DNA from: a bacterium | GTDB lineage: Bacteria > UBP4 > UBA4092 > JAOAEQ01 | Direction: 5' to 3' | Assembly: GCA_026416715.1 (NCBI GenBank) | Contig: JAOAEQ010000006.1 | Span: 18,598-82,597 of the forward strand | Length of the DNA: 64,000 nucleotides | Part shown: positions 12,388-61,830 of the stretch, one piece after another | How the letters are laid out: each line of letters opens with the position of its first letter | Numbering within the stretch: position 1 is the stretch's first letter | Made by a program: the position numbers and the translations under genes | Notes under the pieces: model-generated | Database searches by the model: none | Seen by the model: the letters and a program-made list of their open reading frames with translations, nothing else | Told to the model about the DNA's origin: nothing

Positions 12388-12435
12388 TCTGGAGTAACTA
12401 CGAACGAGATATTATCTCGTTCGTAGTCTCCCCAG
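12388..12435. repeat. palindromic hairpin element A
   Basis: A perfect 15-bp inverted repeat spans 12397-12427 around a single central base: ACTACGAACGAGATA and its complement. It extends outward through GGAG/CTCC and CTGG/CCAG with small bulges. It lies between two genes of the same operon, about 30 nt after the GT4 stop, and has no T-run. It shares the CGAACGAG core with elements at 40222-40264 and 61789-61830. Confidence 0.85.
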
Positions 12436-15368: not shown

Positions 15369-15443
15369 CGATTCAAACAGATTTCTGCGGATTTACACTG
15401 ATTACACTATCCGTCGGCATCCGTTACTATCCGTTTGCATCGA
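15369..15443. repeat. degenerate intergenic words before the msbA-like gene
   Basis: On the minus strand this holds three spaced copies of ACGGATA-type words (15408-15435), then GTAATCAGTGTAAATCC and AGAAATCTGTTTG, related to the GTAATCTGTGTAATC word found at four other junctions. It ends 6 nt before the msbA-like start codon and no ribosome-binding site is visible. Confidence 0.55.
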
Positions 15444-15454
15444 CTTTATAAATT

Positions 15455-15650
15455 AAAAGAGGTTTCCCGCTGTAATGCCGTGAGAACCACGTTTTGAACC
15501 ATTTAATCAAAGTGGGCACCTCCGCTTACGCTTCGCGCTTTTCTGTCACCGCAGAACTTGCATCCCGCGTAACGCAATCAGTTCCCCTATTAAACGGTGT
15601 TGGATCAAAAATTGTAATTCTACACGAACATAGCAGGAAACCTAAGCTTT
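15455..15650 (-). ncRNA. ssrS: 6S RNA candidate
   Basis: On the minus strand the ends pair as AGGTTTCCTGCT (15643-15632) with AGCGGGAAACCT (15471-15460): 12 pairs, one G-U. Just inside, ATGTTCGTG faces CACGGCAT, the ATGTTCG...CGGCAT pairing seen in E. coli 6S RNA. Next TTTTGATCCA pairs with TGGTTCAAAA, and CACC with GGTG, flanking a roughly 15-20-nt open bubble on each side. A terminal arm (TTACGC/GCGTAA, then TTCTG/CAGAA) closes the rod. The closed part is 184 nt, matching the 6S size. A consensus-like promoter (15658-15686) would start transcription near 15651, and a CTTTT tract follows the closing stem. 6S RNA binds the housekeeping RNA polymerase and mimics an open promoter. Exact ends are inferred. 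Confidence 0.75.
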
Positions 15651-22144: not shown

Positions 22145-22173
22145 TTATATAATAGGTTAAATAATGTTGTCAA
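22144..22173 (-). promoter_or_regulatory. consensus sigma-70 promoter of the marR-RND operon
   Basis: On the minus strand TTGACA (22173-22168) and TATAAT (22149-22144) both match the consensus at 6 of 6 positions, with an 18-nt spacer. Transcription would start near 22137. Confidence 0.8.
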
Positions 22174-22205: not shown

Positions 22206-22250
22206 TGGAGTTGAACCCGAATTGAGCGGTTCAATTCGGGTTCAACTCCA
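22206..22250. repeat. palindromic hairpin element D
   Basis: A perfect 20-bp inverted repeat: the left arm 22206-22225 (TGGAGTTGAACCCGAATTGA) pairs fully with 22231-22250 around the 5-nt loop GCGGT. It lies between the marR promoter and the end of the HD-GYP gene. The outer GGAGTT/AACTCC resembles the ends of element C. There is no T-run, so it is not an ordinary terminator. Confidence 0.9.
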
Positions 22251-28204: not shown

Positions 28205-28234
28205 TTGACAATATCTGGCTGTTTCCTCTATAAT
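28205..28234 (+). promoter_or_regulatory. consensus sigma-70 promoter of the yceD-rpmF-fab operon
   Basis: TTGACA (28205-28210) and TATAAT (28229-28234) match the consensus fully with an 18-nt spacer. Transcription would begin near 28241, leaving a leader of about 230 nt before yceD at 28474. Confidence 0.85.
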
Positions 28235-28237
28235 AAA

Positions 28238-28455
28238 TGCTCAAAATTTAAAAAAGCGGTAGCCTCATTATTAATTTTGTTGAGCAGGACTTAGAGAACA
28301 ACCTGCGCCGTTGCAGCGGAAATCTAAAACGCATAACTCATACTTTGTAACCCTTTTTGAAATTTGGATTTGTGCTTTTGGCATTCCAGCAACGGAGGTG
28401 CTGGCTGTTGTCTACGTCCTGAATCTAGCACGCATCAAATCTCGATTTTGTAGCA
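28238..28455 (+). ncRNA. candidate structured leader RNA of the fatty-acid operon
   Basis: The non-coding leader has a set of nested complementary segments. TGCTCAAAAT (28238-28247) pairs with ATTTTGTAGCA (28445-28455). AGGAC (28286-28290) pairs with GTCCT (28416-28420), ACAAC (28298-28302) with GTTGT (28407-28411), and CCGTTGC (28308-28314) with GCAACGG (28389-28395). Competing local hairpins exist: CTGC/GCAG (28303-28316), and CCAGCA/TGCTGG (28386-28404) with loop ACGGAGG, whose loops are themselves complementary. Mutually exclusive or kissing folds of this kind are typical of regulatory leaders. I recognise no known riboswitch, T-box or ribosomal-protein leader signature. The TSS is inferred. 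Confidence 0.45.
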
Positions 28456-28473
28456 GATTTTGAAGGGAGAATT

Positions 28474-29025
28474 ATGGTTATCGATTTGTCGCTGCTGGAG
28501 GAGGGAACGTCTTACCAAGAATTTCTAACTCCTGCAGAAATATTTACAGCGATTGATATCTTATTACACCTTATAACTCCGGTTAAGACCCAACTCCAGT
28601 TCATTAAAACTGGCAACAATATCCTACTGAACGGGATAAGTTCCACCTCAGTAGAATTAAGTTGCAGCCGATGTTTAGAACCGTTTGTCTATTCGATTAC
28701 GGCACCGTTTAGCTATGAACTTCGACAGAAACCAGAACTTGCGACTCCTACTGCGATCAATCTGGAGTTTGAAGCTGAAGAGACACTATTCCAAGAGGAT
28801 GCCGCGGAAATTGTGTATTATACCGGAACAAGAATTGAGTTGATTGATGAAATACGACAGGAACTGGAACTAGCGATTCCGATGCAGCCGTTATGTAGCG
28901 AAAATTGCGCGGGATTATGTATTCAATGTGGGGCGAACCTAAACAAAGGGAAATGCAGTTGTCCTCCGATTGACAAAGAGAATCCCTTTGCTGTATTAAA
29001 ACAGAAAATTAAACCCAAAATATGA
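28474..29025 (+). CDS. yceD: YceD/DUF177 family protein
   Basis: The 183-residue protein has the DUF177 signature: a Cys pair in LSCSRCLEPFVYSI, an acidic segment (NLEFEAEETLF), an IELIDEIRQELELAIPMQPLC stretch, and a Cys-rich C-terminal knuckle (CSENCAGLCIQCGANLNKGKC). In many bacteria this gene directly precedes rpmF, as here; in some it influences 23S rRNA maturation or accumulation. AGGGAG lies 6 nt before the ATG. It is the first gene behind the consensus promoter and long leader. Confidence 0.88.
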   Translation: MVIDLSLLEEGTSYQEFLTPAEIFTAIDILLHLITPVKTQLQFIKTGNNILLNGISSTSVELSCSRCLEPFVYSITAPFSYELRQKPELATPTAINLEFEAEETLFQEDAAEIVYYTGTRIELIDEIRQELELAIPMQPLCSENCAGLCIQCGANLNKGKCSCPPIDKENPFAVLKQKIKPKI

Positions 29026-29079: not shown

Positions 29080-29120
29080 AAATCTGGGTAATCTACCGTT
29101 AATAATCTGTGTAATCGAAT
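29080..29120. repeat. tandem GGTAATCTGTGTAATC-type words
   Basis: Two copies, AAATCTGGGTAATC (29080-29093) and ATAATCTGTGTAATCGAAT (29102-29120), sit in the yceD-rpmF gap. The same word precedes fabF at 33693. Confidence 0.6.
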
Positions 29121-29139
29121 TTCTATAGAAAGGTAGAAT

Positions 29140-33692: not shown

Positions 33693-33716
33693 GTAATCTG
33701 TGTAATCAAAATTCAT
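33693..33716. repeat. GTAATCTGTGTAATC intergenic word before fabF
   Basis: A further copy of the word seen at 29102-29120, ending 5 nt before the fabF start codon. No Shine-Dalgarno sequence is visible between acpP and fabF close to the start. Confidence 0.55.
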
Positions 33717-40221: not shown

Positions 40222-40264
40222 GGCGCTACGATGAACGAGCTATGAGCTCGTTCATCGTAGCGCC
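40222..40264. repeat. palindromic hairpin element B
   Basis: A perfect 20-bp inverted repeat: 40222-40241 (GGCGCTACGATGAACGAGCT) pairs with 40245-40264 around a 3-nt loop. It starts 44 nt after the etfA stop and has no T-run. It shares the ATGAACGAGCT core with element C at 61789-61830. Confidence 0.9.
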
Positions 40265-44999: not shown

Positions 45000-45041
45000 C
45001 GTATAACGTTGGTCTAACCGCCTCATAGACTAGAGTTGAAG

Positions 45042-45074
45042 CCCAAAGGAGTATGATACTCCTTTGGGTTTTTT
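45042..45074 (+). terminator. Rho-independent terminator
   Basis: A perfect 13-bp stem, CCCAAAGGAGTAT and its complement, around a single-base loop is followed by TTTTTT. It lies 43 nt after the stop of the large secreted protein gene. Confidence 0.92.
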
Positions 45075-58965: not shown

Positions 58966-59003
58966 GAGAAAAAAATCAGTAAAAAATTCGAATGATAGAA
59001 TAG

Positions 59004-59041
59004 AAAAAAGTTCAATCCGCAGCAGGGGATTGAACTTTTTT
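59004..59041. terminator. bidirectional Rho-independent terminator
   Basis: The 9-bp stem GTTCAATCC/GGATTGAAC (59010-59018 with 59027-59035) has an A-run on the left and a T-run on the right. It can stop the foldase gene on the plus strand and the TPR gene on the minus strand, which converge here. Confidence 0.88.
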
Positions 59042-59043
59042 CT

Positions 59044-61788: not shown

Positions 61789-61830
61789 GGAGTAAGGATG
61801 AACGAGCTCGAGCTCGTTCATCTTAACTCC
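61789..61830. repeat. palindromic hairpin element C
   Basis: A perfect 26-nt palindrome (61797-61822) with no loop, centre GAGCTC|GAGCTC, is flanked by GGAGT (61789-61793) and ACTCC (61826-61830). The core GATGAACGAGCT equals that of element B. Confidence 0.88.

Follow-up and report, generated by a model that had tools for sequence, protein, structure and literature searches.

A predicted long hairpin in the 5′ untranslated leader of a yceD-rpmF-plsX-fab operon from the phylum UBP4

Described leaders and the yceD-rpmF locus

The leaders of E. coli rnc and pnp are 5′-UTR hairpins processed by RNase III. Imperfect palindromes are also found in MITE and ERIC-type elements. In E. coli, a promoter before yceD co-transcribes yceD and rpmF (PMC5049393). 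A survey of ribosomal protein leaders describes 20 motifs. L31 leaders are among them, and in Corynebacteriaceae one of these controls rpmE and rpmF; the main text of the survey contains no mention of L32 or of an L32-binding leader (PMC7247131).

The locus described here lies in a window of 64,000 nucleotides, the whole stretch of DNA that was analysed, from a source assembly of 2.96 Mb (G000). One other genome of the phylum, from the same class and a different family, is present in the collection (G001). The operon begins with the open reading frame of yceD (DUF177; 28474-29025, forward strand), followed by rpmF for L32 (29140-29319) and then by plsX, fabH, fabD, fabG, acpP, and fabF; the gene names follow the translations. 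G001 retains the order yceD-L32-plsX-fabH. In a Selenomonadaceae genome, a RAGATH-18 RNA was observed between yceD and rpmF (locus L034, 3642-3703). RAGATH-18 is an IS607 TnpB guide-RNA type (PMC11061315), and this match is thus probably the remnant of a mobile element.

Like the rnc and pnp leaders, the locus has a long irregular stem, here a predicted one, before a housekeeping operon, with the ribosome-binding site outside the stem. The likeness is one of layout, and no sequence relationship is claimed. Structured RNA before ribosomal protein genes is shared with the ribosomal protein leaders, several of which are single hairpins; those leaders show significant covariation, whereas the present hairpin is without relatives (PMC7247131). 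The imperfect palindrome, 137 nt long and bounded by 25-bp repeats, lies in a probably transcribed intergenic region; in this it resembles MITE and ERIC-type elements, but it is single-copy in its genome. In the leader-only fold, the rough rod shape is similar to that of 6S RNA, although the leader gives no match to the 6S RNA model (RF00013).

Promoter and predicted leader

A sigma-70-type promoter, TTGACA-18-TATAAT, lies at 28205-28234 on the forward strand with a 12/12 match, as the preliminary description had reported about 230 nt before yceD. The distance from the -10 element to the ATG of yceD (28474) is 239 nt. Hexamer counts over the whole window, on both strands and with spacings of 16-18, lead to an expectation of 0.055 sites with a 12/12 match, and three were found (28205+, 40791+, and 22173-). 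In G001, a perfect TTGACA-17-TATAAT precedes yceD (locus L003, 3383-3355, minus strand). The complete match, its rarity by expectation, and the perfect promoter in G001 make it well supported, at the sequence level, that the operon has a real vegetative promoter. The two further sites of the window, at 22173 (-) and 40791 (+), are also perfect TTGACA-18-TATAAT sites with an identical 18-nt spacer.

From the position of the -10 element, transcription is likely to start near 28241. The predicted untranslated leader of yceD-rpmF-plsX-fabHDG-acpP-fabF spans 28241-28473. It includes the Shine-Dalgarno region of yceD (28463-28470), whose core GAAGGG (28462-28467) is predicted to lie in the loop of a small A/U stem and has an unpaired probability of 0.95-1.0 in the predicted ensemble. 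A terminator scan of the leader gave no convincing candidate; the segment 28386-28404 was flagged under a lenient rule only and lacks a true U-run. Neither a terminator/antiterminator pair nor sequestration of the Shine-Dalgarno sequence, either of which would constitute an expression platform, appeared in the predicted leader fold. As translation initiation appears open, the hairpin, if active, is more likely to act on RNA stability or processing.

The long hairpin and its alternative folds

The middle of the leader is predicted to fold into one long, irregular, near-palindromic hairpin (28285-28421, forward strand), with 48 pairs, -50.5 kcal/mol, and z -5.3. The pairs consist of 24 A-U, 21 G-C, and 3 G-U. 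The stem is unbranched, and its outer half is interrupted by 1x1 mismatches every 2-6 pairs. Because this stretch had been picked from the fold, dinucleotide shuffles were made on the whole leader. None of 1000 shuffles contained a 137-nt stretch at or below -50.5 kcal/mol (the best was -46.7), and on this ground the predicted hairpin exceeds chance, mainly because it is so stable. An unbranched stem as long as this one was found in 23 of the 1000. The leader as a whole stands out only to a moderate degree, with z between about -2.2 and -2.4 and 13/1000 shuffles as stable.

The opposite strand of 28285-28421 also folds stably, at -44.7 against -50.5 kcal/mol (z -4.1 against -5.3). This strand preference is weak, owing to the low number of G-U pairs. 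The ends of the hairpin resemble 25-bp terminal repeats, CAGGACTTAGAGAACAACCTGCGCC and CAGGACGTAGACAACAGCCAGCACC, alike at 20 of 25 positions; they fit one degenerate pattern in opposite orientation, and terminal inverted repeats are therefore present.

The four pairs of complementary segments proposed in the preliminary description are all present in the sequence, but two of them are not predicted to form helices. The helix 28298-28302/28407-28411 (ACAAC/GTTGT) has a probability of about 0, since the stable fold pairs 28297-28300 with 28406-28409 and the helix is out of register with it. The outer pair 28238-28247/28445-28455 likewise has a probability of about 0 when the modelled RNA runs from 28241 into the first 30 nt of yceD. 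Its 5′ end lies about 3 nt ahead of the likely transcription start, and the first three bases of the helix are thus probably outside the RNA.

Two local hairpins had been described as competitors of the long-range pairing. Both exist, at a considerable cost to the fold. The hairpin at 28303-28316 (forward strand; CTGCGCCGTTGCAG) has -3.7 kcal/mol alone, and enforcing this minor alternative costs 10.7 kcal/mol; the one at 28386-28404 (forward strand; CCAGCAACGGAGGTGCTGG) has -8.2 kcal/mol alone and costs 7.9 kcal/mol. Enforced together, they cost 10.7 kcal/mol. The alternative folds retain the outer helices while forming the local hairpins. Their loops, CCGT and ACGG, are indeed complementary, but this is not independent evidence: a local palindrome in one arm of a long hairpin implies its complement in the other arm, and thereby complementary loops. 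A diverged direct repeat of 28321-28361 is found at 28422-28464 on the forward strand (AATCTARMACGCAT...TTTGTA...TTTTGAA); 4/300 shuffles scored as high under strict and 2/300 under lenient scoring.

Relatives, copies, and possible explanations

In agreement with the preliminary description, the leader does not match a recognised class. The comparison with Rfam gave no family match at the gathering score, nor at E up to 10 apart from one on the opposite strand that is put down to chance. BLAST across 60 genomes found no relative of the leader. Run over 385 other genomes and over 81 plsX loci, the single-sequence structure model, which detects close relatives only, had no match. No usable relative came from viral contigs that encode YceD and PlsX proteins, and 34 other plsX/yceD loci scanned for known RNA families had no leader in common. 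In its own genome, the leader is single-copy by BLAST, end-repeat pattern, and structure model, and a search for the terminal repeat that allowed up to 3 mismatches found it nowhere else. The second match of the structure model was the same site on the opposite strand, which shows how palindromic the hairpin is. No 23S rRNA, sought for mimicry of the L32 site, was found in the assembly. A likeness to integron attC sites was rejected by eye, as the box consensus is unmatched. The yceD leader in G001 is ~80 nt long with short hairpins only (z -2.3); the hairpin is absent there, and the structure model gave no match. The leader in the window is longer than that of G001 by about 150 nt, close to the 137 nt of the hairpin.

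Other hairpins and repeats were observed. Palindromes of the form GAACGAG-N6/7-CTCGTTC occur at 29 places in the source assembly, against 0 for the reversed-pattern control; three are in the window (12389-12435, 40222-40264, and 61789-61830). The 20 fetched copies and the 3 window copies show two subtypes, ...CTAC|GAACGAGATATTATCTCGTTC|GTAG... and ...GAT|GAACGAGCTCGAGCTCGTTC|ATC.... Their outer stems vary between copies yet often remain self-complementary, like REP-like or terminator-like hairpins, and the sequence of this family is unrelated to the leader hairpin. Very stable, near-perfect intergenic hairpins lie at 22206-22250, 45039-45071, and 59002-59043; those at 45039 and 59002 close with a T-run and are terminator-like, while 22206-22250 (GGAGTTGAACCCGAATTGAG...) does not. 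A short dispersed intergenic motif of the type TAATCTGTGTAATC is present at 29103-29123, 33694-33714, and around 15380-15440. A clear 6S RNA is located at 15460-15642 on the minus strand (90 bits, RF00013).

The explanation tentatively favoured here, on the basis of the predicted fold, is a lineage-specific 5′-UTR hairpin that may have a passive post-transcriptional role in RNA processing or stability. The strong vegetative sigma-70-type promoter would drive yceD-rpmF-plsX-fab and give the transcript a 5′ UTR of about 230 nt. One long irregular hairpin would form from the central 137 nt of this UTR, with the ribosome-binding site of yceD left free. The double-stranded stem might then set the mRNA half-life or be cut by an RNase III-type enzyme. 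We infer both the transcription of the leader and any such role. The promoter match, perfect in G001 as well, the significance of the hairpin, the better folding of the forward strand, the free Shine-Dalgarno sequence, and the lack of a convincing terminator or an Rfam family were counted for this explanation, and the absence of the hairpin from G001 and the presence of only 3 G-U pairs against it. Much of the same data is also explained by an inert inverted repeat, that is, an insertion or a decayed MITE-like palindromic element that sits in the 5′ UTR by chance and regulates nothing. The terminal-repeat-like ends, the stable folding on both strands, the extra length relative to G001, and a genome in which another, unrelated family of palindromes numbers at least 29 copies are consistent with it, but the terminal repeat is not found again, either within 3 mismatches or by the structure model, and the flanks show no clear target-site duplication. 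A decayed inverted-repeat insertion is somewhat doubtful in itself, and nearly as likely as a stem for stability or processing.

The preliminary description had gone further and proposed a structured leader RNA whose signal could be acyl intermediates, a nucleotide, or L32 itself. A long promoter-driven leader with significant structure and no Rfam match is supported, while the switch is not: the genomes and loci searched gave no homologous leader, and hence no covariation, G001 lacks the structure, the predicted fold has no expression platform, and the alternative folds are far less stable. A cis-regulatory leader, either an L32 ribosomal protein leader or a metabolite riboswitch that alternates between the long hairpin and the local hairpins, is accordingly considered unlikely. 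Its position before the L32 and fatty-acid operon, its significant structure, and the outer helices preserved in the alternative folds would suit such a leader, and there are two weak hints, namely that the direct repeat could offer an alternative partner and that CCCTT in the apical loop (28351-28355) is complementary to AAGGG in the Shine-Dalgarno sequence and might pair with it. However, a 5-nt match of this kind is common by chance, no homologues provide covariation, the alternative folds are 8-11 kcal/mol worse, the Shine-Dalgarno sequence is open without a convincing terminator, and the complementary loops follow from the complementary arms. A ligand-sensing switch is thus less likely than the passive role in processing or stability. 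That the hairpin represents a phylum-restricted class of regulatory leader, coupling the expression of L32 and of fatty-acid synthesis by hairpin switching, is quite improbable. It is very unlikely that an ordinary leader folds in this manner by chance; the modest stability of the whole leader, similar best z-scores (down to -5.4) in other yceD upstream regions, and intergenic hairpins of larger excess stability in the window point in that direction, but none of the leader shuffles contained an equally stable stretch. The least probable explanation, hardly credible, is a free small RNA processed from the leader, such as a second 6S-like RNA. The leader-only fold, with a closing stem, an open centre, and a long terminal stem over about 215 nt, is suggestive of one, but the 6S model fails to match the leader even with E relaxed to 10, the true 6S RNA sits elsewhere in the window, and no convincing terminator precedes yceD.

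Were the element regulatory, RNA would directly connect the making of ribosomes with that of membranes in a phylum of which little is known. As it stands, it is an orphan 5′-UTR hairpin, of use mainly as an example that significant local folding and complementary loops are not in themselves enough to make a riboswitch.
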